Positions 354-64,000 of a stretch of 64,000 nt of DNA are shown here, in pieces (position 1 is the stretch's first letter; each line of letters opens with the position of its first letter). The notes beneath the pieces were generated by a model. That model saw only the letters and a list, made by a program, of their open reading frames with translations, searched no databases and was not told the DNA's origin. A program made the position numbers and the translations under genes. This DNA comes from Dioscorea cayenensis subsp. rotundata (lineage: Eukaryota; Streptophyta; Magnoliopsida; Dioscoreales; Dioscoreaceae), in contig NC_052478.1 of the NCBI RefSeq assembly GCF_009730915.1, positions 21,742,387 through 21,806,386 on the forward strand, read 5' to 3'.

Positions 354-3300
354 ATGGCAAATATTGCAAAAAGAGAATTTGAGGCCCTTCAAATCTCGTG
401 GAGCAATTATATATCCCTGAGCCCTCGATATCAAGCTCCATCCGAAAGCAAGAAACCCGAGTAAAACTATCGAGGCTAATAACAATGAGCCTAGTGATAA
501 TAAGGCTAAGGCCTTAATATTTATAAGGCATCACATCACGATGGCCTCAAGAATGAATACTCGACTATCGAGGATCCACAGAATTGTGGTTATCCCCAAA
601 GAGAGATTCAACATCTCGAATCGGGCTCTACTCGCCCAAAAGCACGCAATGATTGGTCAAGCCCTCGTGTTTCAAGATTTTAAAAGCTGCAAGAATATAA
701 TTCCGAAAGTCATTTAAAAATTAGTTTCAAGATTGCCTCCGGAGAAACAAATGATGTAAGGAAACGATGCTCGAGAAAAATATTTACAACATTTCACGCA
801 AGAAATGTTATATTACAACAACAATATAGAGAAAAGAATTTTTACAAAAATTCTCGAATTAATTTCTTGTCTCCTCGCGACGGAACAAAACAATGAATCA
901 TCGATCTGACACATCATCAATCCTCACCATCCGGATCACGACCACCGCCGTAAATTAATTTTGGGCAAAGAAGATGGCGTGGTCGCGCTGCTAGTTTTTA
1001 AAAACCGCGCTGACGTAGGAAATTACGGTGGTCGAGGACTCACTGGTCGTGCGGGGTCAAATAATATCGACCACGCGACAACGTAATCGATGTACATCAA
1101 TGTAAGCAAACAAAGCCACAAGACGGGGTTAGAGACAAAGAAAGATACATGCTATCGTCTAGGGCTCGGAAGGTCATCGTCCGAATTTGTAGGACCCTCA
1201 AAATATTTTGTCCATCTTTTACCAAGAATCACTTTAAAAACAAGAAAGGTAAAGATATCGAGACAAATTCTGGCTGACAACCCCATAGTTGATCCAATCG
1301 AGGATAATTCCATAAATAATTTAAATGTAACCTGAAAAATACATATTTAGATACGCTCGATTTCTATGTATCAGTTTGTAATACGCCTTTTATGTTTTAT
1401 TAAATTATGTTTATCTTTTTGTTTTGTTAGAATACTAGCCGATGATGAACGCATTATCGATCATGGACAACGCATACTATTTTTCGACAAGAAAAAAATA
1501 TATTTTATATCCTTATCAACGAGAAAGGCATATATAGTCACAATAGCGTGGTCATCGACCGGGTCAAGGTTCTCGGAGAAGCGCATTGATGTCGCTAAAA
1601 TCGAACATCCTGCATATGAAAAATGCCTCTATTCCCCAAGTCTAGGAGGAAACCTTTTAAGCTTTTGAAAGATATACGCCCTCAATGGATATCATTTAGA
1701 GATCGTTGATAAGGAAGGAAAAGAATATCTTTTATATTACACAAGTCATTTCTTCACGCCAAAAACGCAGACTTGAAAGCTTTCCTCAGATATCCTCGTG
1801 ATTATATTTTTACACGACAAAGTGACTGGATCACATACTGTGATTAACCCCTGAAGGTTAATGACCCGTAGATATTTAAAAATACGGCATGAAAAGACTT
1901 GGACATCCGGTGCTATTATGTCACACCGGATTATTACTAGTTCTCATGGACACCCAATCGAAGGATTATAAAATCCTAACACATAACGAATACGCATGTT
2001 CAAAGACGTCTCAACGGAAAGCTAATAACCGCACCTTCTATAACAAAAAGGCGATCGTTAATCTCCTAAATTTTTAGAAAGAATACATAGGAGACATTTA
2101 TGGACCAATACATCCAGCCATGTGGACCATTTAGATATTTTTATGGTTTTAATCGATGATCGACTAGATGGTCCCATGTTTCACCGCTCATGCTACGAAT
2201 GTAGCATTTGCAAGGTTATCTGGCACAAATTATCGTGCTTAAAGCACAATTTTCGTGATTATCCCATAAAGATAATTCGCCTTGATAATGCCGGGCGAAT
2301 TTTCATCAAAAATCATTTTTATGATTATCAGATGGCAAATTGAATACATGTTGAGCATCCAAGTAGTCATGCGACATACCCAATGGGTCAAGTGGAGTCA
2401 TTAATTAAAAAGACTCTGATTATCGCCTCATCCAATGTTATTAAGGACTTAAACCGCCTACAAGTGCGTGGGTCACGCTATTTTCGCATGCCGCAGCTTT
2501 TAATACTGATCCCACCCTAACGCATGTAATTCTATATTCACCACACCAACTTGTTATGGGTAAAGAGCCCCGATATTTCATATATAAGAATATTTGTTGT
2601 GCAAGATATGTGCCAATACCACCACCAAATCGATACAAAAATGGGTCCACAACGCAGACTTGGTATATATGTCTGGTTATGATTCCCTTCAATTATAATG
2701 ATATTTAGAACCATTACATGGGATGTATTTATCGCAAGATTTGCAGATTGTCATTTTGACTTTAACTGCCTTCCCCGCATTAGGGGAGAAATGATTACTC
2801 AAAACGAGCCAAAAAGAAATCGATCGAATGCATCACGATTACATACATATGATCCTCGCATCTAACGAATGTGAACTCGAAGTTCAAAGGATCATTAAAT
2901 TGCAAAATATCGCAAAATGAAATACCTCGATGCATTCACCGATACTAAAATGGTAACTAAATCATATATACCACCGCGAACGCTCCCTCGCAAGAATCGA
3001 GATTCCTAAGAATCCATCGAAAGAAAATCAAGTAGAAAATAAACCACGACAAAAACGCGGAAGACCAATTGATGCTAAAGATTCAAACTCCTAGAAAAAG
3101 GAAGCAGAAAAATAAAGAAAAGGATCTCCCATGTAAAGAGGGAGAGGAAATTTTAAAACCCTCGTAACAAGTTAACGAAGAATCAACGGGGATGATATTT
3201 CGAAAAAACGTTGAAAATTCAATTTGCACATGTAGATGACGGTCAAAGATCAATCGGCATGAGACCGAAATAAATGATATATTCATCTACAAATGTGGCT

Positions 3301-5632
3301 ACAGATATAGAAATAACACCGATAACGATCCGTGAGCCACGATCCATCAAGAATGTCGATAAAGAAACGATCGGCCAAAATGGAAAGAAGCTATCCAGCC
3401 GAGCTAAATTCCCTATCAAAAACGTGAGGTGTTCTGAGGTCGAGTAGCGCAACACTGTATGGGATAAAAACCAATGGTTATAAACTGGGTGTTTCAGGAG
3501 AAAAAGAAACGAAAATAATCAAATTATGAGATACAAAGCAAGACCCAGTCGCTCAAGGTTTTTTCTCAAACGCATGGTATTGACATGATAGAGACATACT
3601 CTCCTCAGAATGACTGGAATTACTTTTTCGATTTTTTTAATCGCTACTGGCAAAAGTAGTAATAAATTAGATACGCAAATGATGGATGTCGTCACAAAGA
3701 TATCCGTACGGATTACTTGAAAAAATGATATATATATGAAAAATCCCTCAAGGATATAGAAAAACAAACATTACAAATAATCATCATTTATACTCTATTA
3801 AATTACAGTAGATCTCTTTATGGGTTAAAACAATTCAGACGGATGTAGGTATAACCGCTCTCAAATAATATCTTATAAAAGAAGGATACCAAAATAATAA
3901 TATACGTCCCATGTGTGTTTATTAAAAGTTATACTAACGGTTTTGTCAGTGATAGCAGATATGTGGATGATTTAAATCTTGTAGGCACTCCTTCTCGAAA
4001 TTGCAAATCGCAAAGATCATATCTCGAAAAAGAATTTGAAAACGAAAGATTCTGGGAAAGACCAAATTCCCGCCTAGGTATACAAATCGAGCACTTATAC
4101 TCGGGAATATTTGTGCATCAATCAACCCTATACGTAAAAAGGTCGTCAAGAGATTCAATATGGAGAAGGCTTTATCCACTCGAGTCACGCCCAACGGTCG
4201 TCCGAACTCTCGATGTTCGTGAAAGATCCATTTCGCCCACCGAAGAAGGAGAGATCATTCTGGTCCAGAAACTCCATATTTAAGTGCAATCGATGCATTA
4301 ACGTATCTCGTAAATAATACTGCATCGGATATAGCTTTTAGCAAGAAATCTTCTAGCGAGATACGCTCTACAATCGACGCCAAAGACACCGGAAAGGAGT
4401 AAAAAGATGTGCTCACGTTATTTACTGATGAACCACTGATCTCAGGTTTATTCTATCGACAAGAATCTTCATCCAACCTCACGTGTTTTTGTCTGATGTG
4501 CGGTATCTCGTCTCGATCCTCACAAAGGGCGTATCTCAGATCGGATACATGTTTTTCTTACAATGGTACATCTATCTCATGTGCGTCCACAAAAACAAAC
4601 TCTTACGCCTACTTTATCAAATCATGTCGAAATTCTAGCTCTTCATGAAGCAAAGTCGTGAACGCTAAATGGTTACGATCTATCGATCGAGCATATATAC
4701 AATATCCCGCAAAATTACCATCAAGAATAAACAAACGCTACAAGAATTTTATGAAGACAACAACGCTTTAGTATTTCTCAAATACAAGGATGTTATATTA
4801 AAAGGGCGATGTAATCCAAAACATATATCACCAAAAATTTTTCTACACCTCACGATCTCCGTAGAAGGCGTATAAGTTCAAAAAGATTCAATCCAGGAGT
4901 AATCGTGTCGATCTATTCACAAAATCACTTCCTACAGGATTCACCAAAGACTTATATACAAAATCGGGACGAGAAGACTTAAGGATGTAAGACTGACATG
5001 AAGTTAAAAGTTATTTATTCTGAGGAGATCGCACTTTTTCCCTTCGCCATGCTTTTGTCCCCAATGGGTTTTTTTCCCGAGGTAAGGTTTTTAACTGAGG
5101 CAAGAATTCCCTCAAATGTGCTAAGGATAGTGTACTCTTTTTTTCCTTACTAGTGCTTTTTATCCCACCTGAGTTTTTTTCCTATCAAGGTTTTAACGGT
5201 GATATCCTTCTGGTCAGAGAGATCCAGGGTGAGTGTTATAAACAAATATTTTTAATGGACGCCATCGTAGCAATTTCAATCAGAAGCATTTCAAGACTAC
5301 TATAGCAACTTCTAGATATTACCGTAGTAGTCAGAACATCAGAGAGACACCATGTGGTACCCAGACAGTGCCCACCCTGCATCGCTATTATTCCACCAAC
5401 TGGTAGATTTAGATCGCTCTGATCGAATCGATCCCCGGCCGCTCATTCAACTCTCAGAACCCCTATAAATACCCCCTCATTTTAGTATACTTTGGAATAT
5501 ATAGAGAAGAGAAAGAAAAGAGAGAATAAAAGAAGTTAAGAAGCTTAATTCTTCGCGCTGGGTTTTTTGTAGAATACTCCTATCTCTATTCTTATTACTA
5601 TCTTTACATTTATAACATATATATTCTTAACA
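354..5632 (+). mobile_element. Old, broken Ty1/copia LTR retrotransposon
   Basis: Order of parts on the + strand is gag, protease/pre-integrase, integrase, reverse transcriptase, RNase H, 3' LTR, which is the copia order. A gag-like start lies near 354 (MANIAKREFEAL) and further gag homology runs to about 920. A GAG-pre-integrase/zinc region follows near 1890-2070 (LGHP start, then Cys-containing segment). Integrase core homology runs about 2090-2760. The YVDD reverse-transcriptase signature lies near 3960-3990 with the LGIQIEH region downstream. RNase H-end homology (KHISPKIF and the LFTKSLP-like stretch) lies about 4780-4960. The element is heavily broken by many disruptions and cannot be active. 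No 5' LTR was recognised, so it cannot be dated by LTR comparison; the decay suggests an old insertion. Confidence 0.88.
5235..5632 (+). repeat. 3' LTR of the copia element
   Basis: The sequence opens TGTTATAAAC and closes near TTCTTAACA, giving the usual TG...CA ends. It follows a purine-rich stretch (gagagatccagggtgag) that fits a polypurine tract. Inside is a TATA-like CTATAAATACC near 5463, as expected for an LTR promoter. Length is about 400 bases. The exact right border is estimated. Confidence 0.7.
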
Positions 5633-7701: not shown

Positions 7702-9912
7702 TCAATTCACTATGAGACTGAATGCCTCACACTCCTTGAAGGTGTCGATTTTCCGGTCTCTGGATTGATCGAGACCGAGACTGGGCTCTCCGATGTATCG
7801 GAGCTGCTGCTGTTCTCTCCGCCTTGCGCTTTTTCCTGGCAACAACTTGCTCAGTATCTTCTTCGGCATTATAACACCCTTTGCTTTTTCATTGCCCTTA
7901 TCATCGACTACGCCGATCTTATGCACATCACTGCTGCTGCCACCACTGCTCCGCTCGCTCCCCGCGCATTTGCCTCCAGTAGTCAACCTCATCGACTGCA
8001 ATGAGTTAACCGCATCACATTCGTCGTCAGTGTTGGTGTATGAAGCAGATTTTGAGCTGCTCTTGTGAGACCCGGCATTTTTGCGTGGGAGAAGTGATCC
8101 TAAAGTTGGTAGATCACCAGTAGCCGATGCTCTCATTTGCTCAAAAAACAGGACTTGGACTACTACTCTCAACGGAAGCCGGTCATTCTGCACGGCATGC
8201 ATGCAGGCATCGGCCGAAAGCTTTTTGCAGTCCATTAGACTGCATATCTTCTTCTTCTCGCTCTTTGTCAGTTCGGTGTGTTCCTGCAACACCGTGCAAA
8301 CCTTGCGTTATATAAACAGAAAAACTATCGAAAGAATGCGTAATTTAGTTAGTTTTGAGAAATGTACCTTCAGATATATGTCAATGGCTCGATACAGACC
8401 ATCGTGCACTGGCCTAGAGGCGACAGAGATCATTTCAGCGAGCTCGATGAATTTCTGAAGAGGTAGATTGGGGTCTTTTGCAATCTCAGCGAGATATCCA
8501 TCGATCAACAGAGTTACAGCCAGTTTTGCAGTGCCAGCAACAATGCCGGAGCTCTGATTATCTTGAAGTTCTTCTGAATGATCGTCGTTGTTTTCTAGCA
8601 CCAAGAACTCCTCAACTATACATAAAACCATGTCAACATCATACACAGTGTTCTCCCCGGCCGGAGCGGGAAACAAAAAGATCTGGCATCGAAGCTTCTT
8701 CTAACTGGCGTCCAATTCTTTTTGATCAACTCTCTCTTCGTCGCTTTTCTCCGCAATCTAACAAACATGCAGCCTTGAGTAGTTTGAGCAAGAAACTACA
8801 TGAAACTGAACCTTTTTTCAGGAGGAATCAACCATAGAATTGTCTCAAGCAATGTCTGACTTTTTAGCGACATCGCCTGCTTGATTAACAATGCCTCTGG
8901 CAAACCCCCGGAAGTCTTCTATAAGTATAAGCTTTCAGAGCTTCTCCGATCACTTCCCGGTTTGTTCTTCCCTTTGTTTTAATGGCTGTAAGAATCTGTT
9001 TGTATGAATCAAGCTCAATCTCACACAAGTCTTCGACCCACCAGTCTTTAGGCACCGATTGCTGCTTTCGAACCCCATTCCAATGCGGATCGACACCATT
9101 TTCTGATGGAAGTTTCTTCCTGTTATATGTATATGACCATTCGACCTCAGAACTATCTATCGAGGCTTTCAACGCGATAGAGTCTACACAATTACTTACT
9201 ATCTTCAGGTCTTCAGACCAAGGTAACAAAGACTTCGTAGTTTGAAGAACTATTATCGAGTCTTTCCAGCTGCGAAACACACTTGAATTCAGAAAGACTT
9301 CGATTTTGTAGATGAGATTTCCTTTATCAACAGTTTCATTCATTTCAAGGTACTCTGCCGCGCAACGAGCCATGACTACATTGTAAGCATTTAGAGTGAC
9401 TATCATGCCATAACAAAATTTAGCACATATCTCGAATGCAGCCGAGCCGCCGGGTATTTCAGAAATGTCAATCTCATCATTATTATCCTCATTTGTCGTC
9501 GACATCAACCTCTTCAGGTGACCACTTTTCGACAGAAGAGGAAACTGCAGTATGGAAAAAAATCTACATAAATGAAATACAGAAAACCGACAACATTCTT
9601 CGACTACATTACAAGTATCTATGAAGCATTTTTCTTAACCAATTAAATTCTTATGAACTTATTATGTTCTCGAATGCTTATTCTGGTGACTTAAAAAGAA
9701 AGAATCATATGCCGTGTTTTTCATGCGAGGTTTTTCGAATAAAGTTTGGCAGTGTACCTTGTGTAGGTAGAACTTCACATCTCCAACTGTCACGACGATG
9801 TCGGTCGCTAATTCAGTAGCCACAAACCTGCTCAGAAAAAAATTCTATATTATATAGTATCAACAAATTAAGCATTTCTCATATTAGAACTATACATATA
9901 CACTTATTAACT

Positions 9913-18857: not shown

Positions 18858-18905
18858 CTGTCAAACATCGGAGAGTTTTTACATTGCCAATCATTCGTGA
18901 GTGTC

Positions 18906-19905
18906 NNNNNNNNNNNNNNNNNNNNNNNNNNNNNNNNNNNNNNNNNNNNNNNNNNNNNNNNNNNNNNNNNNNNNNNNNNNNNNNNNNNNNNNNNNNNNNN
19001 NNNNNNNNNNNNNNNNNNNNNNNNNNNNNNNNNNNNNNNNNNNNNNNNNNNNNNNNNNNNNNNNNNNNNNNNNNNNNNNNNNNNNNNNNNNNNNNNNNNN
19101 NNNNNNNNNNNNNNNNNNNNNNNNNNNNNNNNNNNNNNNNNNNNNNNNNNNNNNNNNNNNNNNNNNNNNNNNNNNNNNNNNNNNNNNNNNNNNNNNNNNN
19201 NNNNNNNNNNNNNNNNNNNNNNNNNNNNNNNNNNNNNNNNNNNNNNNNNNNNNNNNNNNNNNNNNNNNNNNNNNNNNNNNNNNNNNNNNNNNNNNNNNNN
19301 NNNNNNNNNNNNNNNNNNNNNNNNNNNNNNNNNNNNNNNNNNNNNNNNNNNNNNNNNNNNNNNNNNNNNNNNNNNNNNNNNNNNNNNNNNNNNNNNNNNN
19401 NNNNNNNNNNNNNNNNNNNNNNNNNNNNNNNNNNNNNNNNNNNNNNNNNNNNNNNNNNNNNNNNNNNNNNNNNNNNNNNNNNNNNNNNNNNNNNNNNNNN
19501 NNNNNNNNNNNNNNNNNNNNNNNNNNNNNNNNNNNNNNNNNNNNNNNNNNNNNNNNNNNNNNNNNNNNNNNNNNNNNNNNNNNNNNNNNNNNNNNNNNNN
19601 NNNNNNNNNNNNNNNNNNNNNNNNNNNNNNNNNNNNNNNNNNNNNNNNNNNNNNNNNNNNNNNNNNNNNNNNNNNNNNNNNNNNNNNNNNNNNNNNNNNN
19701 NNNNNNNNNNNNNNNNNNNNNNNNNNNNNNNNNNNNNNNNNNNNNNNNNNNNNNNNNNNNNNNNNNNNNNNNNNNNNNNNNNNNNNNNNNNNNNNNNNNN
19801 NNNNNNNNNNNNNNNNNNNNNNNNNNNNNNNNNNNNNNNNNNNNNNNNNNNNNNNNNNNNNNNNNNNNNNNNNNNNNNNNNNNNNNNNNNNNNNNNNNNN
19901 NNNNN
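18906..19905. other. Assembly gap (1000 N)
   Basis: Exactly 1000 unknown bases, which suggests a fixed-size scaffold join. It separates a minus-strand formamidase fragment from the last exon of a plus-strand channel gene. A whole CNGC gene would not fit in 1 kb, so the true gap is probably larger or the join is wrong. Confidence 0.97.
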
Positions 19906-26200: not shown

Positions 26201-26406
26201 TATTTATGTTCATAATATGTTAATCTTAGGGTTTTTGGGGCTTGTATGACCTCACAAAATGAGTAATTCTTATTATGTCCTTGTAAAAAATATATTTGAC
26301 TAGAGGCCTTTAGAAGTGTTTGACGGCCATGAATGCGAACGAGAGAGCTCCTCCTCCAGTGAGAAACGTCTAATTTATCGCTTTATTTAATAATTAGTGG
26401 TAATAA
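23249..26406. other. Gene-poor AT-rich interval
   Basis: The RING gene 3' UTR probably ends near 23560. Nothing else is supported. A run of TTA triplets lies near 25658-25681 and (AT)n at 26167-26184. Short frames (for example 25911-26156) are low-complexity, Phe/Leu-rich and not convincing. Confidence 0.6.
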
Positions 26407-27406
26407 NNNNNNNNNNNNNNNNNNNNNNNNNNNNNNNNNNNNNNNNNNNNNNNNNNNNNNNNNNNNNNNNNNNNNNNNNNNNNNNNNNNNNNNNNNNNNN
26501 NNNNNNNNNNNNNNNNNNNNNNNNNNNNNNNNNNNNNNNNNNNNNNNNNNNNNNNNNNNNNNNNNNNNNNNNNNNNNNNNNNNNNNNNNNNNNNNNNNNN
26601 NNNNNNNNNNNNNNNNNNNNNNNNNNNNNNNNNNNNNNNNNNNNNNNNNNNNNNNNNNNNNNNNNNNNNNNNNNNNNNNNNNNNNNNNNNNNNNNNNNNN
26701 NNNNNNNNNNNNNNNNNNNNNNNNNNNNNNNNNNNNNNNNNNNNNNNNNNNNNNNNNNNNNNNNNNNNNNNNNNNNNNNNNNNNNNNNNNNNNNNNNNNN
26801 NNNNNNNNNNNNNNNNNNNNNNNNNNNNNNNNNNNNNNNNNNNNNNNNNNNNNNNNNNNNNNNNNNNNNNNNNNNNNNNNNNNNNNNNNNNNNNNNNNNN
26901 NNNNNNNNNNNNNNNNNNNNNNNNNNNNNNNNNNNNNNNNNNNNNNNNNNNNNNNNNNNNNNNNNNNNNNNNNNNNNNNNNNNNNNNNNNNNNNNNNNNN
27001 NNNNNNNNNNNNNNNNNNNNNNNNNNNNNNNNNNNNNNNNNNNNNNNNNNNNNNNNNNNNNNNNNNNNNNNNNNNNNNNNNNNNNNNNNNNNNNNNNNNN
27101 NNNNNNNNNNNNNNNNNNNNNNNNNNNNNNNNNNNNNNNNNNNNNNNNNNNNNNNNNNNNNNNNNNNNNNNNNNNNNNNNNNNNNNNNNNNNNNNNNNNN
27201 NNNNNNNNNNNNNNNNNNNNNNNNNNNNNNNNNNNNNNNNNNNNNNNNNNNNNNNNNNNNNNNNNNNNNNNNNNNNNNNNNNNNNNNNNNNNNNNNNNNN
27301 NNNNNNNNNNNNNNNNNNNNNNNNNNNNNNNNNNNNNNNNNNNNNNNNNNNNNNNNNNNNNNNNNNNNNNNNNNNNNNNNNNNNNNNNNNNNNNNNNNNN
27401 NNNNNN
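26407..27406. other. Assembly gap (1000 N)
   Basis: A second fixed 1000-base N run. Its right edge falls inside a Stowaway-like element, which suggests a repeat caused the break in assembly. Confidence 0.97.
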
Positions 27407-54400: not shown

Positions 54401-56862
54401 GCTGCTATGCTTCCATTAAATTTCTCACTTCCCAAGACTGAAACCCTAATCTACAGAGGAAAAGGAAAGGTAAAGGTAAAGGTATATCAATTTTTTTAAA
54501 TTGCCAGCGATTTTTCATTCACAGAGTGTTTCTGGATCGAATTTTGCAGTGTTCTTCACGTCTTAAACGAACTAATCATTCAATTTGGCGAGATTTGGTA
54601 GCATTTGGCCATCCCCGTGCTTCACGCTAATCAGCCATTAATTTTTCTTATTTTCTTCTACCGGTTTGATAATCTTTGATGTTGATTTGTTTTCTTGCTT
54701 TAAAAACACTCTAAATCCTTTCTTTTTGGGCATCTGCCGTCGTTTTCACTTCTTGGTTTTTAGTTCCTTTTGATTTTTTAATCAAGAAGTGTATTCAAAA
54801 TCTTGGATCTGTTCAAAACCCTAATTAACTTTGGTGATCCTAGTTTTTTTTTTTTCTATTATTTTTTTTTTTCCAGTAAAGATTATGTTTGGAGATGTTT
54901 ATTTGGAGTTTTTGAGATTTTGCTTGCAAAAATTGAATCTTTATTGCATTAGAGCCAAACTTTGTACCACATGTGAAGGAAAAATGAGACGCTTTGACAT
55001 TTCTATTTACTAAAGTGGTTTCTAGGAAAGTTCTCTGCACAAGGTTTGGTGTCTCTTTTATCCCTTTGCTTGTGTCGGTTGAGTAATGGTGGAAAGATGG
55101 GCCTTTTTTTTAATGCAATTGAACATGCTTACTACCAATCTGCACATCATTGCTAAAGTCCTTATCTTTATGGTTTCAATATATTAAAAATTGCTGTGCT
55201 TGATGATTCAGTAATTATAATATCCCATGGTTGATATTTTGTATGTGGTTGTTGACTAGAATCTATGGGCTTGTCTCTTGCTTATGCACATCAATTATTT
55301 ATCTCATTTTACAACTCACAAAAGAAGTCTTCAACTCTGAGGTGTTGGAATAATTCCAGCTAGCTTGTCAGAAAGATGATTACTGTGCATTAGTGGAATG
55401 TTGAATTAGTATATTCTTGTTTTTGTTCTTGTGTTTATAAATCTTTTTTTTTTTTTTTAACCTTGGTTGTAGAGTAAAAGTAACTTCTTTGTTGTTGTGA
55501 AAACTCACTGCCAGTTATGGAATTCTAGAGAGCGTGTTGAATAAATCCAGCTCAGCTATTGGTGCTGACCTTTTTCATGGTTGTTTGTGAGAAGGTGGAA
55601 GGTAGATCTCACAATAGTTTTTGAGTATTTAAGGAGGTCTGAGTCTCCTCTCCTTCCCTGCAGAACTAGCACCATTCTCCATTCTTCCCAATTGTTTCCT
55701 GTTCGTGTCTTCTCTCATCCTGTTCTTCAAAGAGGGGTGCTGGTGAAGTTCCAGTTGGTAACTTTTTTATCTGAATCTTTCATGGCATCCCTAGGATTTT
55801 AAATTTTGTTCTTTGTTTTCTGAATTCCTTCTAAAACGGGTCATTTCCTTTGTTCATTGTTTTTACTTTGATTTTGAGGCTTGTGGGATATTTAGTTGCC
55901 AGATCTGTGCTTTTCCTGTATTGGTTATGTATTCTTTGAATGCAGAGGTGTCATCTCGGTAGTGAAAGCAAGAGAGGCCTTCATTTTTTATTGTGGATGT
56001 ATGCAAAGGTTTTTGCTTTTGATCCGGAGATAGAAAGGGCTTCCTGCAATACAAAGATCTGATTGTAGATGTTTGCTTTGTGCGGATATTTGAGCAGTGT
56101 GTCCTGAAGTTGTTAGATCTGGATCAAAAGATTTCAGTTTTGATTTTGCTGTTGATCCGGTTTGATGTTTTATTGAATGCATCCTTTAATTCTTAGGATT
56201 TGCTCATGTGCTGTCTGGTTTTTGCTCTTGCAGTGATTTGGAGAAATTTGGTTTAACTTCTTCGTCTTCTAATTTGTATATTGTGAAAAGCCTTTGTCAA
56301 ACTATCAGCTGTTTCTTCTCCTCCTTTGATATTTCTTCTGGCCTGTTTGTAGATCTGCAACATTTCTGTCAATCTCTGTTACAAGTTAAGAGTTATTCTC
56401 TCAATACTTTTCAAGTGCCAAATGGCAGTTGATATATGATTGTTTTGCCTTTGTTTGCCTTTTCATATTTGGAAGATCTAATGGCAATTTAGATGTCATA
56501 TGGTTTAGTTTTGTATTAGTACTCTATGTTGTACTATTCCAATATAATCGAATGTCATATCTGCAATTCTGCAGCTGGCCTTTACACATTTTTTTATGCT
56601 TTGAATTTGTTTTTTGATTTTTCTGCATTATATGCTTTGAATTTGTTTTTTGATTTTTCTGCATTAGATCATTAAGGTCATGTGAATAAAAAAAAAAATT
56701 CAAGATGTTTTATTGATGTCCTGATCTGATTAATTTTTAACCATTTGAATGAATGTTTGTAGTGTCAGATCTGTTATTCCTTTTGTCAAACAATATGTGA
56801 ATTGCAGAGTGATCTTCTTACCTCATTTTATGAACTTGTAGGTTGGACGGTAATCTGTAAAC
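54401..56862 (+). other. 5' leader of UGD with a long intron
   Basis: GAAACCCTAATCTACAGAGG near 54439 looks like leader sequence, with donor candidates in AAGGTAAAGG at 54467-54485. Acceptor candidates lie at about 56807 (ATTGCAG|AG) and 56841 (TTGTAG|GTTGG), giving an intron of ~2.3 kb. A long leader intron before a single-exon coding region is the usual plant UGD layout and often supports strong expression. Confidence 0.6.
56595..56666. repeat. Perfect 36-base tandem duplication in the UGD leader intron
   Basis: Two identical adjacent units beginning TATGCTTTGAATTTG and ending TTTTCTGCATTA. Confidence 0.97.
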
Positions 56863-58305
56863 ATGGTGAAGATCTGTTGCATTGGTGCCGGCTATGTTGG
56901 GGGGCCAACCATGGCAGTTATCGCTCTCAAATGCCCATCCATAGAAGTGGTTGTTGTCGACATCTCAGTTGCGCGCATCAACGCATGGAACAGTGACCAG
57001 CTTCCAATTTATGAACCAGGCCTTGATGATGTAGTCAAGCAATGCCGTGGCAGAAACCTCTTTTTCAGCTCGGATGTTGAGAAACATGTTTGCGAGGCTG
57101 ATATCATCTTCGTGTCCGTGAACACGCCGACGAAGACTCGTGGTCTTGGTGCTGGTAAGGCTGCTGATCTCACCTACTGGGAGAGTGCAGCTCGCATGAT
57201 TGCCGATGTCTCCAAAACTGACAAGATTGTGGTCGAGAAATCCACTGTCCCCGTTAAGACTGCCGAGGCCATTGAGAAGATCTTAAGCCACAACAGCAAA
57301 GGAATCAACTATTCCATTCTGTCGAATCCAGAATTTCTTGCTGAGGGTACCGCAATCCAGGACTTGTTCAACCCTGATAGGGTACTTATTGGTGGTCGTG
57401 AGACTCCAGAGGGCCAGAAGGCTGTTCAGGCACTGAAGGCAGTGTATGCTCATTGGGTGCCCGAAGACCGGATTATAACTACAAACTTATGGTCAGCGGA
57501 GCTTTCAAAGCTTGCTGCAAATGCTTTCCTGGCCCAGAGAATCTCGTCGGTCAATGCCATTTCTGCTCTCTGTGAGGCCACTGGAGCTGATGTTGCCGAA
57601 GTGGCGTATTCTGTTGGGAAGGACTCGAGGATCGGGCCCAAATTCTTGAATGCTAGTGTCGGTTTCGGAGGATCCTGCTTTCAGAAGGACATTCTAAATC
57701 TGGTATACATCTGCGAGTGCAATGGCCTTCCTGAGGTTGCTAATTACTGGAAGCAGGTCATCAAGATCAACGACTACCAGAAGAACCGATTCGTCAATCG
57801 TGTCGTATCCTCCATGTTTAACACTGTTTCCGGAAAGAAGATTGCCATTCTTGGATTTGCATTCAAGAAGGACACCGGCGATACAAGGGAGACCCCTGCT
57901 ATTGATGTCTGCAAAGGTCTGTTGGGTGACAAAGCGACGATCAGCATATATGACCCTCAGGTGACAGAGGACCAGATCCAGCGTGATCTATCGATGAACA
58001 AGTTCGATTGGGACCATCCGATCCACCTTCAACCGATGAGTCCCACGGCTGTGAAGCAAGTCAGTGTTACATGGGACGCATACGAGGCTACAAAAGGCGC
58101 TCATGGCGTCTGCATTTTGACCGAATGGGACGAGTTCAAGACACTAGACTACCAGAGGATCTATGATAACATGCAGAAGCCGGCATTTGTCTTCGATGGA
58201 CGCAATGTGGTAGATCATGAGAAGCTTAGGGAGATTGGATTCATTGTCTACTCCATTGGAAAGCCTCTCGATGCTTGGCTCAAGGACATGCCTGCCATGG
58301 CGTAA
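56863..58305 (+). CDS. UGD: UDP-glucose 6-dehydrogenase
   Basis: One uninterrupted 480-aa frame, the standard plant length. It oxidises UDP-glucose with 2 NAD+ to UDP-glucuronate in the cytosol, feeding UDP-xylose, UDP-arabinose and UDP-galacturonate for cell walls. NAD-binding GAGYVGG at residues 9-15, VDIS at 32-35, [10 protein letters not shown] at 85-94, [11 protein letters not shown] at 125-135, [11 protein letters not shown] with Glu161, the KLAAN segment at 216-220, and the catalytic Cys272 in [10 protein letters not shown]. The C-terminal UDP-binding domain ([25 protein letters not shown]) is complete. Codon use is more GC-rich than the surroundings, as expected for a highly expressed gene. 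Start ATG is the first in the frame and begins [10 protein letters not shown] as in the family. Confidence 0.98.
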
Positions 58306-59008
58306 AACTTAAAACCGAAGACATTACCATATACTTTGTTGTCGAATTAGGCGGAATTGACTATTCTTTATGCTTTGTTGTGTTTGTTTTACTGCAATGT
58401 AGTGTACTAGTGTTGTTGTCATACCCACCAGCCATTTAGTTGTTCTATGTGAAATGACCGTCAGATCTTTGTATGAATCTCTACTGCTATTCTTGTTTTT
58501 ATCAAAAATTCAAAAGGTTAAAATGGTTATTTCAAAGTGATTACTGTTAGGCTTTTTTTTTTTTAAAATATTAAAAAAAAAATATTTACTAAATTAAGCA
58601 TGTTTGGGATTATTTATAAAAATACGTTGATGAAAAATAAAAAAATTTATCCGTTTTCATTTTTTTTATTATTTATTTTAAAATATAAAAAATGGGAGAG
58701 TTTTTCCGTTTTCAAAATTTTATAATTTTTTTTAATTAAAAAAAAACTCATGCTGCTGTTAACTGTTAATTTTAAAAAAAATTCTTTTTATATAATTAAT
58801 TTCTTAATTAAAAAATAATTGTTGATATATATATATTTATTTATTTTAACGTTTTATTTAAAAAAAACTAGAATCTAAAAAAATATTAGAAAATGTTTCA
58901 ATATATATATCACTATTGGTTTTTCATAAAAATGAAAAATAAAAAAAATTTAAATATATATATATATATATCACCATTAGGCATTAGGGTTTTAGACGTG
59001 TTCATTAT

Positions 59009-59012
<4 letters not shown>
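58306..59012. other. AT-rich interval after UGD
   Basis: UGD 3' UTR to about 58500, then very AT-rich sequence with (AT)n runs near 58825 and 58955. No gene is seen. Confidence 0.6.

Positions 59013-59043
<31 letters not shown>
59013..59043 (+). repeat. (CT)n tract
   Basis: Pure CT run of about 30 bases ending directly before ATG 59044, with an ATTAGGGTTTTA box ~30 bases upstream of it. It is leader-like if the following frame is expressed. Confidence 0.9.
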
Positions 59044-59046
<3 letters not shown>

Positions 59047-59514
59047 GATACCTCCCCACCGTCACCCCCAACCTCACCACGACGCCGCTCTCTTTTCCGT
59101 TTCTCTTTGTCCCCACCGCCACCAGGATTATCTAATCTTCGGCTGGCCCCGCCGCCACCACCCGGGCTCTCTTTTCTTCTAATGTCCCCACCGCCATCCC
59201 CACTCCCATCCCCATCCCCATCCCCACCTCCATCTCCATCCCCATCCCCATCCCCACCTCCATTCCCATCCCCATCCCCACCTTCATCTCCATCCCCATC
59301 CCCATCCCCATCCGGGTCACCCGGGCAACTCCCATCCCCACCCTCACCCCCACCTTCATCCCCACTGGACTGGGTTTTGGTGGGGGTTTTCCTGGCAGGC
59401 ATATTTTATCACGGCCGACATTGCTCGCAGGGGTGGAGCACGGGGACTGTTCAAGCACGCACTCATACGGTTCGTCACGTTCGTTCTGCAAATGCTGGAA
59501 AAGACCGAGGATGA
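59044..59514 (+). CDS. Hypothetical Pro/Ser-rich protein built on a minisatellite
   Basis: 156-aa frame. Residues ~1-50 are Pro/Ser/Arg/Leu-rich. Residues ~50-115 are SPSP/PPP-type repeats, then a short hydrophobic stretch (LDWVLVGVFLAGIF). No known domain. In the next frame the end of the region reads RGGARGLFKHALIRF and FVLQMLEKTEDE, closing with an acidic SAETDDDE tail and a stop at 59543-59545. A short intron or frame change near 59395-59430 might join the two. The CT-rich leader and AGGGTTTT box support expression; the repeat nature argues for caution. The function is unknown. Confidence 0.35.
59183..59360. repeat. CCATCCCCA-type minisatellite
   Basis: Irregular array of CCATCC, CCCATC and CCACCT hexamers. 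All six frames stay open across much of it, so open frames here are weak evidence for coding. Confidence 0.9.
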
Positions 59515-59545
59515 GCAAAGTGCCGAGACTGATGATGATGAGTGA

Positions 59546-59990
59546 GCTGGTGGTAGTGTATTTAGCTTAATTATCAAATTGTTTATCTTAAAGTAAATAC
59601 TCTTAAATATCTGTTTGAATGTGATATGAATGTGATGTTAATTAATGAAAATGCCTGTTAATTTGAATGTTTTTAATTTATCGTTGTAATATATATATGT
59701 ATATAGGTTTTTAATTTCTAGTTCTATTAAGAACTAATCATTTAACTTTGAATCAAAGTAGAAAAAAATTTTTATCCTATTCCTATAGGAGTGGGGAAAT
59801 AAATAAAAAAAATTAAAGTAAAAAATAATAATTAAGAAAAAATATATAAAAAAAAAGGAGAGGGAGAATATATATATTGATTTAAAATAAATTAAAAAAA
59901 TGTTTGAAATTCAAAACTCAAAAATTGGCAAACCCTAAGCAATAAGGGTAGTTTTGTAATCTTCTCTCCTATGTAAACCCTAAATACCCA
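59546..59990. other. AT-rich spacer
   Basis: No gene is seen. A TATA-rich stretch with AAACCCTAAATACCC at its right edge begins the next gene's presumed promoter/leader. Confidence 0.5.
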
Positions 59991-60030
59991 ATTAATTCAC
60001 TTTCTAGGGTTTCTCACCTCACAGCAAAGG

Positions 60031-60360
60031 TTTTGGCGGCTGGCTTTCGAACTGATCTCTTCTGGGTGAGGTGAGCGTTCTTCTCTTCTTGCGATCCATG
60101 GCCAAACTCTAGATTTCTCGATTTTCTTATTAATGTCTTAATTTGCTGATGTTGTATGTTTATGATTCCTTGTTTAGTTTCACTTCGAGGGGTTCTTTCG
60201 GCGGCTGGGGATCTGATCTCCTCTCCTCTCGGTGAGCGTTCTCTTCATGGGATCCATGGCCAAGTGCTATGGACTACTCGTTGTTCTCTTATAAAAATCT
60301 TAATTTGCTGATGTTTGATGTTTTTAATGATTGCTTATTTAGTTTGTTTCTTTGAAGAGA
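60031..60360 (+). repeat. Tandem duplication in the leader of the transposase-domain gene
   Basis: Two units of ~164 bases. Shared blocks are GGCGGCTGG, CTGATCTC, GGTGAGCGTTCT, GGATCCATGGCCAA or CGATCCATGGCCAA, CTTAATTTGCTGATG and TTTAGTTT. Each unit has a potential splice donor (GGTGAGCG) and an ATGGCCAA start, so alternative first exons are possible. Confidence 0.82.
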
Positions 60361-61170
60361 TAGATTGAGATTAAATATTGATGTTTTCAGCTTGTAAACA
60401 TATTAGTGAATAATCTTGAAATTTCTTCTTTTCATTGTCACTGAATTTGTTTGACATGTTGATTTTGAAGTTTTGAGTATATATATGGTAGAGTTCATTT
60501 ATTTATTTAATTCTTTTATAATTTTGTTTTCAATGCAAACTTTCAAAATTTTGATGATAAAAAAAAAGTCCTAGTGATATTTGTGGGTCTGATGAACTCT
60601 CTATGATTGCAACACAAAACAAGCAAAATAAAATTAATCATGCAAACAGTAATACAATAACAACATTTTTTTTTTTTTTTTGGCAAAAATCAAGACCATT
60701 AATTCCAGGCCAGCTAAAATAAACTGCATTCGGTCCTGGCACTTATCTCTGAATATCCTGAAGTGCTCTGTTGTAAGTTGAGAGACCTGCTGAACAAGTC
60801 CTTTGAATAGCAACAGTCGTAATATAATTACTTGCATTCTGTTGGATCCATGATAGAATCACACTTTGATATATTTATTTTACTTTAATTGAAACATGTT
60901 TTTCCTATGTTTTGTTTTACTTTAGTACCAAATTGATTTATTTGTCCATACTAATCTTGCTTCCAGTTAGGAAGTCTTTGATAAGTGCACACTGTTACTA
61001 GGACCTTTACTCTATGTCATTGATCTTATTACAAAGCTATTGTACCTATGACTACAACCCAATTAAATAAATCTTTACTTAAATAGCATTTCATGTTTTT
61101 ATTTTAAATTTTTAATTCTCATAAATAACTCAAATCAATTGTTATTATTTCAGTTTTAATTTCTTAACTT
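60361..61170. other. Leader intron region of the transposase-domain gene
   Basis: AT-rich with a T13-type run near 60668. A GC-richer patch at 60690-60860 has an open frame on the minus strand without recognisable similarity. A 3' splice site candidate (TTATTTCAG) lies at about 61145-61153, just upstream of the start codon. Confidence 0.35.
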
Positions 61171-62103
61171 ATGGATAAGTCATGGAAAGAGCTTATAAAA
61201 GGAAGGAGGGTAGATGAAATGGAAGAGAAGGTCACCAAATTCTTCTTCCATGTCTTTGTTAGACCATCCAGAGACAGAGATGGTAAATTATGGTGTCCTT
61301 GTTTTAAATGTGGTTCTGTAAAAAGGGTGCCTAAAAGAGAAGCATTTGATCATGTTATCTGTGATGGATTTCTCCAAGGACTAGAAGTAAAGGTACAAAG
61401 GTTAAAGGCTGAGGTCCAAGTGTTGAAACAATCTTTAACTACTGTTATATCATTATTTGAAAAACAATTTCCAGGTGAGAATGAGGAAATTCTGAACACT
61501 ATTGCTTCCATGATCAATCAAAAGGTATGTAAGGGTATATATATATATATTACTGGTTTTATATACAAGTTCATTGATTTTTTAACAATTTATTTAATAT
61601 TATTTGTAGGCACCTGAGGCATCTGGTACTCAACAAATGCCATGTGGAAATGATCATCTTCCGGAATCAAGCCATCGCGTAAAACAAAATGCGGTAAGCT
61701 AATTAATTTAAGCACTGTTGCTTCCATGGTCAATGGAGAGGTATGTGATGGTAAATAGTTTTGGTTTTATGTAAAAGTTTTGTTCATTGATCTTTTGCTT
61801 TGGTAGCTATGTGTTTGATTATTTTTATTCAGTTATTGTTTGCTTTTGATGTATATGTTGTGGCTATCTTTCTTGTGGCCTTTGAGATATATTCTTTCCG
61901 TGATCAGAAGTCGCAAAATTTTGATTTTTAACTATTTGTTTAACTTTTTTTTGTAGTTGCGTAATGCATCTGGTACTCAACAAACACCAAATGGAAATAA
62001 TCATTCTCCAGTATCAAGTCATCTCGCAAATCATTTTCGTTACCTGCCTTTGGTTGCCTATTCAGTTGGTGTCTTATTTTGTATTTACAAACTTAGATCG
62101 TAA
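61171..62103 (+). CDS. Transposase-associated-domain protein with coiled coil and hydrophobic tail
   Basis: Three exons, all phase 0 with GT-AG sites: 61171-61524, 61610-61693, 61957-62103, giving an intact 194-aa product. Residues 1-70 match the transposase-associated domain of CACTA elements: MDKSWKELIKGRR start, zinc-binding-like C42-x-C44-x2-C47 (WCPCFKCG) and FDHVICDGFLQG (H61, C64). Residues ~70-100 form a short coiled coil (VQRLKAEVQVLKQSL). Exon 2 and the start of exon 3 are tandem copies (ASGTQQ-P-GN-H-P-SSH in both). The last 25 residues are a hydrophobic stretch YLPLVAYSVGVLFCIYKLRS ending in basic residues, as in tail-anchored proteins. No transposase catalytic domain and no CACTA ends are visible. 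It could be a domesticated or still-fragmentary transposon gene; expression is unproven. Confidence 0.6.
61497..61998 (+). repeat. Tandem duplication that doubled an exon
   Basis: Unit 1 begins ACTATTGCTTCCATGATC at 61499 and includes the end of exon 1, intron 1 and exon 2. Unit 2 begins ACTGTTGCTTCCATGGTC at 61714 and includes the matching intron and the start of exon 3 (GCATCTGGTACTCAACAA in both). Confidence 0.85.
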
Positions 62104-62190
62104 TCTAGTTGCAGTTGCCTGCCTTTGGTTTTCTATTTAATTAGTGTCTTGTTTTGTATTTGCAAACTTAGATTGTAATCTAGTTGCAAT
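62041..62190 (+). repeat. 75-base tandem duplication at the 3' end of the gene
   Basis: Two adjacent 75-base units, T(A/G)CCTGCCTTTGGTT to TAATCTAGTTGCA, about 85-90 percent identical. The first unit encodes the hydrophobic tail and stop codon; the second is untranslated. A third partial start (TACCTGTCTTT) follows at 62191. Confidence 0.93.
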
Positions 62191-62692
62191 TACCTGTCTT
62201 TATTTTCAACAAGTATATGTTCATAGTCGATTTTCCAACATCATTTCAATTTCTTTTATTTTTGTGTTCTGTGCATACATTAATGCCATTCCTCAATTCT
62301 GTTGTCTGTTTTTTTTTCTGCCTACATTCAACAGCTAAATGAGGCCCATTATGTTAATCTAGTTGGATGTATGCTGCTAATTTAGCTGTGATTTCTAAGA
62401 ATGATTACTTAAATGATTCTCAGGGAGTGTTTATAACAAATACTAAGTTTTAACAGTAATTTTAATTTGGTGTACAATATAGCTATATGAAATAAGTTAG
62501 TGAAGGTAAAAGCTAAAAGATAGATTGAAGAACTTTAATTTTTTTTCAACTTATTATACTAAATATTTGGAAGAGCATAAATCTGTTATCTGCTGCTATT
62601 TGGAGGTCCTTTTCTGTTATTGACTAGTTTAGACACCTTAATTGAAAATAAAACTTTGGTTAAATATAAAAAAAATGTATATTTAATTTAGA
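62191..62692. other. 3' flank, no further gene
   Basis: AT-rich; presumably the 3' UTR of the preceding gene followed by spacer. Nothing else is recognised. Confidence 0.5.
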
Positions 62693-63105
62693 AAGCAGGA
62701 ACATTTATAAAACACTAATAAATAACTCAACACAAGTGTACTTAATTAAAGAACATTGATTGCAAGAGGCATGACTAATTGGGAGGAGACTTTAAGAAGA
62801 GCTTTAGGACTAGTAAATCTCAAAGATGACAGCAAACACAATTTGAAATTCAGAACTTAATAATCAAAATCATCTGATGAATTTCTTCAAGCAGCAACTG
62901 CAATCATGTCTGCAACTTGATCGAGATCTCGCCGCCTTCCGATTGATGCAATTTTCCGTTCCGTCGCTTGAAACATAATAAGCAAAACAAATATCAACAT
63001 TCTCAGTTTTGAAAACTTATTACAGAATCAATCAGAGTGATCTAAAACAAGGTTTAGAGTCCAATAAGCATAAAATGGCAAAGTCATACACTAATCTTAA
63101 AGCAT
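62693..63105 (-). pseudogene. Inverted partial copy of the eS19 3' end
   Basis: On the minus strand it repeats the eS19 gene from mid intron 3 (about 53470) through exon 4 and ~190 bases of 3' flank. Intron matches include GATTAGTGTATGACTT and TTGCTTATTATGTTTCA. Exon 4 reads [15 protein letters not shown], with several changes and no acceptor-proximal GGGACGG. Flank matches are TTCATCAGATGATTTTG and TACACTTGTGTTGAG. Exons 1-3 are absent. As the copy contains intron and non-transcribed sequence it arose by DNA duplication, not retroposition. Confidence 0.92.
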
Positions 63106-63460
63106 TGTTAATGTAGCAATAGAAAAAAAAAACTAGGATAAAATAAGAGTTCAATAGAAAAAAAAAAAAAAAATCTTAAATACAAACTATTACACAACTA
63201 ACATATTAAATACATCCTAAATTATATTAATTTTAATAAAAGGATTTAAACATAGATTATTAATTTATGTTTTTCGTCAATATGTGTGAGCATGCAATAC
63301 CAAGAAAAAAAATATATTAAGGAAAATAATACACAGGAGCAAAAGGAAATACAAAGAAAATAATTTTTTAACATTTCAGGGAGGTATTAGCTAATATGGA
63401 AAAACCAGTCAACGGGTTCGGGTCAAAAACTGGTAGCTTATTACATAAACGGATGCTTGT
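63106..63460. other. AT-rich spacer
   Basis: No gene is seen. Long A runs near 63121-63175. Confidence 0.5.
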
Positions 63461-63466
63461 TATTTA

Positions 63467-63487
63467 AACCCGTTAAGTTAACGGGTT
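63467..63487. repeat. Perfect 21-base palindrome
   Basis: AACCCGTTAA, a central G, then TTAACGGGTT. Related AACGGGTTCGG strings occur at about 63411 and 63480, so it sits in a small cluster of CGGGTT repeats. Confidence 0.9.
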
Positions 63488-63499
63488 CGGATTCGGGTT

Positions 63500-64000
63500 C
63501 AGAGCGTAAAACCCGTGAATAGAAAGGGAAGGGATCGAAATCCCGATCTTTTCGTCCCTTTTTAGCCTCCTTCGAACACCGCGATCTTGATTGAAATCCT
63601 CCTCCAATTCCTCCGATTCTTCTTCTTGATCTTGGTATTGATCTTCTTTTCAATCTATTCATGTTCTTCTCTTCTGATTGATATCGATTTCTCTTCTTGC
63701 CGTGGTCGGGAGTAGGTTCTAGGGTTAGGGTTTCGTACCTTTTGTTTTTCGTAATCTTCGTTGGAAATCGATCAATCGGTTTCCTAAATATACTTTCTTT
63801 TGGTGTTTGTTGGCTTTTCCCTCTGTTAATTGATTCGATTTTGCTTTTTGTCGAACGTTGAAATCGAAATCTAGGGTTAGGTTTTTTTGAAATCTTCCCC
63901 GTTCTCACCAATAGATCTTTTGCTTCTGTATAGGTTCAATTCTGAAATCCCAACCCTTTTCATGCTTCAATTGCTTACAATTTTACCGATTTGATTGCTT
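63500..64000 (+). promoter_or_regulatory. Probable promoter/leader of a gene running past the window
   Basis: C/T-rich sequence with TAGGGTTAGGGTTTCG at 63719-63734 (a telo-box-like element common near plant housekeeping gene starts) and a second AGGGTTAGG near 63873. No coding exon is identifiable before the window ends. The open frame on the opposite strand (63441-63911) is Arg/Lys-rich through reading this pyrimidine tract backwards and was not called. Confidence 0.4.

Follow-up and report, generated by a model that had tools for sequence, protein, structure and literature searches.

The window, the whole 64,000-nucleotide stretch of contig C8 analysed here, contains a small gene that joins a zinc-type domain to a heptad region, ASGTQQ motifs and a hydrophobic C-terminus, and it raises the question of how these parts came together and what, if anything, their product does. 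An earlier note had described it as a domesticated DNA-binding domain attached to a membrane, in an architecture that it did not recognise. The coding sequence it proposed agrees with what we find: exons at 61171–61524, 61610–61693 and 61957–62103 are all in phase 0, have GT/AG borders and give a stop-free translation of 194 aa. The HMM search it called for places a PF13963 match in exon 1, at residues 3–71 (Pfam; E value 9.9e-8, 32.5 bits, curated cut-off 27.7). Exon 1 sits in a stop-to-stop stretch of 149 codons, equalled in only 3 of 2000 mononucleotide shuffles of 60001–62700 read in six frames, and this open stretch is beyond chance.

Neither the tnp2 transposase (PF02992) nor any other transposase domain matches within the 194 aa, as the note had also stated, and Transposase_24 (PF03004) gives no match to the product in Pfam; comparisons with PDB sequences and with NCBIfam returned zero matches each. 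Among viral contigs, five stretches fitted a pattern and none was confirmed. A single-sequence AlphaFold model of exon 1 (mean pLDDT 61.7) renders the zinc domain poorly and with low confidence, and predicts a helix at residues 65–99, with pLDDT values of about 83–90 over residues 71–100. The features of the gene are collected in Table 1.

Table 1. Features of the window gene and its leader, in window coordinates; L040 is a CACTA locus taken whole from the same genome, and the C15 copy is the second fused locus.
Feature	Position	Strand	Relation or basis
Leader, 5' non-coding	60409..61170	+	In patches common to the C15 copy
Last 73 bases of leader, TTTCAG acceptor-like site before ATG		+	Common to full-length CACTA elements
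Start of exon 1, PF13963 zinc-type domain, CACTA 5' exon	61171..61380	+	Pfam; L040 DNA
Kept residues of the PF13963 part			Cys42, Cys44, Cys47, His61, Cys64
Joint	61381..61392	+	L040 1822–7128 absent; aligns gap-free to the C15 copy
End of exon 1, coil of CACTA 3' exon	61393..61524	+	L040 homology; predicted helix 65–99
Exon 2, ASGTQQ-type	61610..61693	+	Homologous to CACTA exon L040 7745–7826
Second copy of intron 1 and the end of exon 1, lying in intron 2	61713..61829	+	Like C15 intron 1
Proposed exon 3, first part	61957..62032	+	Second copy of the ASGTQQ exon
Hydrophobic tail and stop	62033..62103	+	Overlaps 75-base tandem repeat

The two halves of the gene are the ends of a CACTA coding unit

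We searched the 584-Mb assembly (2249 contigs) with the 194-aa product, obtaining 338 candidates, of which 150 were scored. Besides the window itself, matches to residues ~1–71 and matches to residues ~74–118 occur apart, often on the same contig and strand; the matches listed (20 N-terminal, 25 coil) include nine such same-strand pairs, and seven of the nine are spaced 5.0–5.6 kb. Three of these loci (L040, L041 and L042) were taken whole, and each has a PF13963 exon, about 5.3 kb of further DNA, the coil, and then an exon that reads PDASSAQQTPRGNNHSHESSHQVNPNA or a close variant of this. The coil of the window gene is 61–67% identical to that of CACTA elements. Between its two halves L040 has matches to PF02992 (320.6 bits), DUF4218, DUF4216 and, weakly, Peptidase_C48; Transposase_24 also matches immediately ahead of the coil, though below threshold (23.5, cut-off 28.7).

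Aligned as DNA, the window gene and L040 match in the same order, and the matches take in some intron sequence and the 73 bases that precede the ATG; the main blocks have 71–79% identity, with 73% between 61098–61380 and L040 1548–1821, and 5.3 kb of L040 with the transposase inside is absent at the joint. Because the match is in order and this centre is absent, we conclude that the window gene is a CACTA coding unit lacking its central part, and we regard its CACTA origin as close to certain. It has a PF13963 domain together with homology to both the 5' and the 3' exons of the elements, and the ends of the coding unit stand in order with the middle gone, as in dSpm-like derivatives. In CACTA elements the C-terminal exons of this same coding unit supply both the heptad region and the ASGTQQ exon, so that the architecture consists of the two ends of one transposon gene whose middle was lost. 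It is thus not an unrecognised one, since both halves lie about 5.3 kb apart in a single coding unit of the same genome, and it is explained without a membrane and without need of domestication.

The note had also reported seeing no CACTA inverted ends, and we likewise find no convincing pair of CACTACAA and TTGTAGTG ends with at most one mismatch in 55001–64000, a search that diverged or more distant ends would escape.

A TNPA-type arrangement in the DNA

Several known systems resemble this arrangement. One study (PMC2613891) describes tnpA and tnpD of maize En/Spm as alternatively spliced, with TNPA binding to subterminal repeats, and reports for soybean Tgmt* a mosaic mRNA, in which the first 346 bp of exon 1 are joined to exon 11, that may encode a TNPA-like protein; dSpm elements are generally internal deletions according to the same study. 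In the window gene, as in the Tgmt* mosaic transcript and maize En/Spm TnpA as described there, the start of CACTA exon 1 is joined to far 3' exons without the transposase, and judged from its sequence it has the TNPA/TNP1-type arrangement, with the start of exon 1 and the 3' exons in one frame. The likeness is one of arrangement: the Tgmt* and TnpA joints are made by splicing the transcript of an intact element, whereas that of the window gene is in the DNA. In addition, a lettuce study (PMC8195511) describes TnpA as a regulatory protein binding subterminal repeats and recognises its homologues by Transposase_24, a mark for which the window product has no match.

Deletion derivatives of the dSpm type are similar in that the centre of the coding unit is gone and both coding ends are kept, but differ in that for the window gene no terminal repeats were found, the frame across the joint is open and the fusion is present at two unlinked loci. 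FAR1/FHY3, DAYSLEEPER and MUSTANG are likewise transposon-derived, of low copy and without terminal repeats found; these domesticated genes derive from MULE and hAT transposases, according to PMC2528002, whereas the window gene derives from CACTA. We found no description of a genomic PF13963–coil fusion in the open-licence literature searched.

The explanation that we favour, and think somewhat more probable than otherwise, is that the window gene is a hard-wired TNPA-type mosaic form, produced by deletion of the centre of a CACTA (En/Spm-type) element and perhaps acting, if it is expressed, as a nuclear regulator of CACTA elements. A CACTA coding unit has lost its central 5.3 kb, including the transposase; what is left in one frame is the acceptor of the leader and the PF13963 zinc-type domain from one end, with the C-terminal coil and the ASGTQQ-type exon from the other. 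In intact CACTA elements, splicing between the beginning of exon 1 and distant 3' exons gives a similar arrangement in a TNPA-type mosaic mRNA; here the arrangement is fixed in the DNA. The product, if made, would most likely be a small soluble nuclear protein whose coil may pair with itself or with element proteins and whose zinc domain may engage CACTA DNA or protein complexes; because it has no transposase, inhibition of transposition would be a likelier effect than its promotion. The function is much less sure than the origin, and we put it forward tentatively. The lack of a Transposase_24 match in the product counts against the explanation, as do the lack of an ASGTQQ exon at the second locus described below, the poor modelling of the zinc domain and rates of protein change that do not show selection. 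Should the protein be produced and have an effect on CACTA elements, a deletion would have made permanent in the DNA what active elements obtain by splicing, and the result would have been retained as a regulator; control in trans of a plant transposon family could then be tested in this case.

A second locus with the same fusion

The same fused exon 1 is present on contig C15 (C15:23032517–23032867, within L039), where it has 42% protein identity to the window gene over 118 residues and its own PF13963 match (34.0 bits). Sequence upstream of the fused exon is also common to both, in patches. The second exon of the C15 copy is short and different, and no ASGTQQ motif or exon is present at that locus; conversely, patches of the CACTA 3' region are seen at C15 (L039 4309–4371 against L040 8156–8219) and none at the window locus. 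Of the 150 matches scored, these two are the fused loci, and what is unusual is the presence of this fusion, with an open frame, at two places that are unlinked. When 30.9 kb around the C15 copy was compared with the 64-kb window, only the gene block was in common. Since their surroundings over this distance are otherwise unlike, we consider the two to be dispersed copies, and rejected the idea that they were duplicated together with their neighbours.

In a tree of the PF13963 part (23 rows, 21 from elements) the window and C15 copies split from all element rows with 97% ultrafast bootstrap, and in a tree of the coil (8 rows, 6 from elements, two with stops, and no outgroup) they split off with 87%. 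This is as one fusion would give, and together with the gap-free joint it suggests that a single fusion gave rise to both copies. However, two independent fusions are possible, because the window gene is nearer to the C18 sequence than to C15 in the PF13963 part (NG86 dS 0.60 and dN 0.38, against 0.78 and 0.52) and equally near to both before the ATG, where in 79 aligned columns it agrees with C18 at 62/78 and with C15 at 61/79.

The distribution of the fusion also bears on whether the host domesticated the CACTA ends as a gene of its own that serves a purpose other than transposition, such as that of a chromatin or transcription factor. This would fit the low copy number, the open frame, the lack of ends nearby and the genic neighbourhood, with an apparently intact single-exon UDP-glucose dehydrogenase gene at 56854–58302, just upstream; against it, the two copies show no synteny in the 30.9 kb compared, as expected if a mobile unit had dispersed, and their proteins diverge fast. 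We consider such a host role improbable. Of the domesticated, membrane-bound DNA-binding domain proposed in the earlier note, one part stands as a possibility, a co-opted zinc-domain protein, because the gene is CACTA-derived, is without transposase or recognisable ends, and has a frame open at two loci; the membrane part does not stand, for reasons that concern the C-terminus.

Internal duplications and the hydrophobic tail

A tandem duplication covers the end of exon 1, intron 1 and exon 2, and recurs in intron 2 and exon 3, the duplicated blocks being 61574–61686 and 61921–62033 (74% identity) and 61497–61541 and 61713–61757 (82%). Because the region is internally duplicated, the two ASGTQQ motifs, which are present as the note had said, are one motif doubled. 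Of the 28 codons compared between the copies in exons 2 and 3, 14 show non-synonymous differences and 2 synonymous ones. A further tandem repeat of 75 bases (62039–62113 and 62114–62188, 88%) spans the end of the coding sequence and the 3' flank. These internal duplications look like decay, and count against our favoured explanation of a TNPA-type regulator.

With exon 3 the product ends in LPLVAYSVGVLFCIYKLRS, a stretch with a basic end that averages 1.77 on the Kyte–Doolittle scale over 17 residues, and it was this that suggested a zinc domain held on the membrane by a C-terminal tail anchor. Equally or more hydrophobic ends are found on 30 of 237 plus-strand and 22 of 231 minus-strand ORFs of the window (at least 45 aa before the stop) and on 1567 of 7950 ORFs in shuffled sequence (at least 30 aa), so that 10–20% of chance frames in the AT-rich DNA here match the tail. 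The tail also depends on the putative splice between exons 2 and 3; with intron 2 unspliced the protein ends ...RVKQNAVS, at a stop at 61700–61702, and has no hydrophobic tail. Copies in the elements end in a hydrophilic ...SSKLLLSPNEKKA followed by a stop (L042 and several other loci). At several element loci a T-rich stretch past the element's own stop reads as hydrophobic, and the tail of the window gene is therefore possibly just T-rich 3' sequence of this kind.

The DNA past 62032 has no counterpart in the CACTA elements compared, and this is the part of the gene best explained by chance. Searching the genome with the C-terminal 76 aa gave a list of 51 places with E values of 10 or less; of those outside the window, the best match (E value 1.6e-4) and the others that were re-aligned rest on the ASGTQQ part. 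We rejected the tail anchor on the grounds of its chance-level hydrophobicity, the hydrophilic element ends and the putative splice, and regard a membrane-held zinc domain as highly improbable.

Selection or drift

Exon 1 of the window gene differs from that of the C15 copy at 113 of 348 aligned sites, and both frames are open. In neutral simulations from either copy (20000 runs under each of six settings) both were stop-free in 0.0001–0.0003 of runs, a probability that counts substitutions only, assumes one fusion and is weaker if divergence arose inside mobile, selected elements. Gaps between the two copies are of 3 and 3 in exon 1, against 5, 5, 3, 7, 13 and 3 in adjoining non-coding sequence. 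The five Cys/His columns (Table 1) are kept in both copies, 5/5 against 15/62 of the other columns (Fisher P 0.0016), it being understood that these five, near-invariant in 12 element rows, were picked by us as likely zinc ligands. The alignment behind this comparison used 12 of the 21 element rows, and the PF13963 tree all 21, from which matches with stops and short matches had already been dropped.

Rates of protein change do not show selection. Between the window and C15 copies the NG86 dN/dS is 0.75, with a bootstrap interval of 0.47–1.24 that includes 1; it is 0.67 in the PF13963 part and 1.33 in the coil. Against three elements the corresponding values, in the same order, are 0.63–0.89 and 0.32–0.41 for the window gene and 0.86–1.02 and 0.50–0.77 for the C15 copy. 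NG86 values are quoted because ML and YN00 estimates were lacking or saturated for some pairs. Exon 1 (61171–61524 against L039 2018–2365) is identical at 235/348 sites (67.5%), less than the preceding 270 bases (199/254, 78.3%), a contrast that is possibly overstated because that non-coding stretch is the best-conserved local one; it may reflect either fast protein change or local upstream constraint.

These data weigh on the reading that the gene is a dead relic, a functionless CACTA deletion derivative that drifts neutrally and is still open by chance. A dN/dS interval that includes 1 would be expected of a relic, and the excess of non-synonymous codons between exons 2 and 3, the tandem duplications inside the gene, the lack of transposon ends in 55001–64000 and the great abundance of CACTA coding remains in this genome (1004 PF13963 candidates, 150 of which were scored) are all on its side. 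Against it are the two open fused frames at such divergence, the gap lengths in exon 1 and the kept Cys/His residues, evidence that weakens if the divergence arose partly inside mobile, selected elements. The relic reading thus stays strong, and we rate it as a real possibility that is nevertheless below an even chance. Were it correct, the locus would illustrate how a transposon gene that has had its middle removed can be mistaken for a novel host architecture if a single window is considered apart from the genome around it.

One extension of the favoured explanation, a deletion-fixed regulator of CACTA elements, is more speculative. The fusion may be a plant counterpart of deletion-derived transposon repressors, in which a CACTA gene without its transposase retained both interaction ends in one frame, spread to at least two loci and was kept while diverging fast, since its small zinc and coiled-coil product would inhibit CACTA elements in trans; we hold this to be rather unlikely.

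Transposon ends and surroundings

Some further observations concern the neighbourhoods of the fused genes and of the elements. Similar frames, by eye 6-phosphogluconolactonase-like, flank the C15 fused gene (L069 3920–4438 and L070 4537–5106, corresponding to C15:23020419–23020937 and 23042037–23042606), perhaps reflecting a local duplication that spans it. Upstream of the window gene, 60042–60328 holds a tandem duplication of about 161 bases that is leader-like and has GGTGAGCG donor-like sites; it was not seen at C15 or in the elements compared. Farther away in the window, broken frames at 2062–4280 appear by eye to be remains of a copia-type retrotransposon, two of which gave no Pfam match at E 0.01, and runs of N (X in translations), either assembly gaps or stretches withheld, occupy about 18900–19900 and 26400–27400.

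The 5' end of the full-length elements that we fetched was looked for and not found. At the other end of L040, repeated motifs (e.g. CCGTTGGTATA) at 8330–9021 precede an end TTGTAGTA, which is likely a CACTA 3' end with a diverged first base, and a 16-base pattern of this 3' end occurs eight times in the genome.
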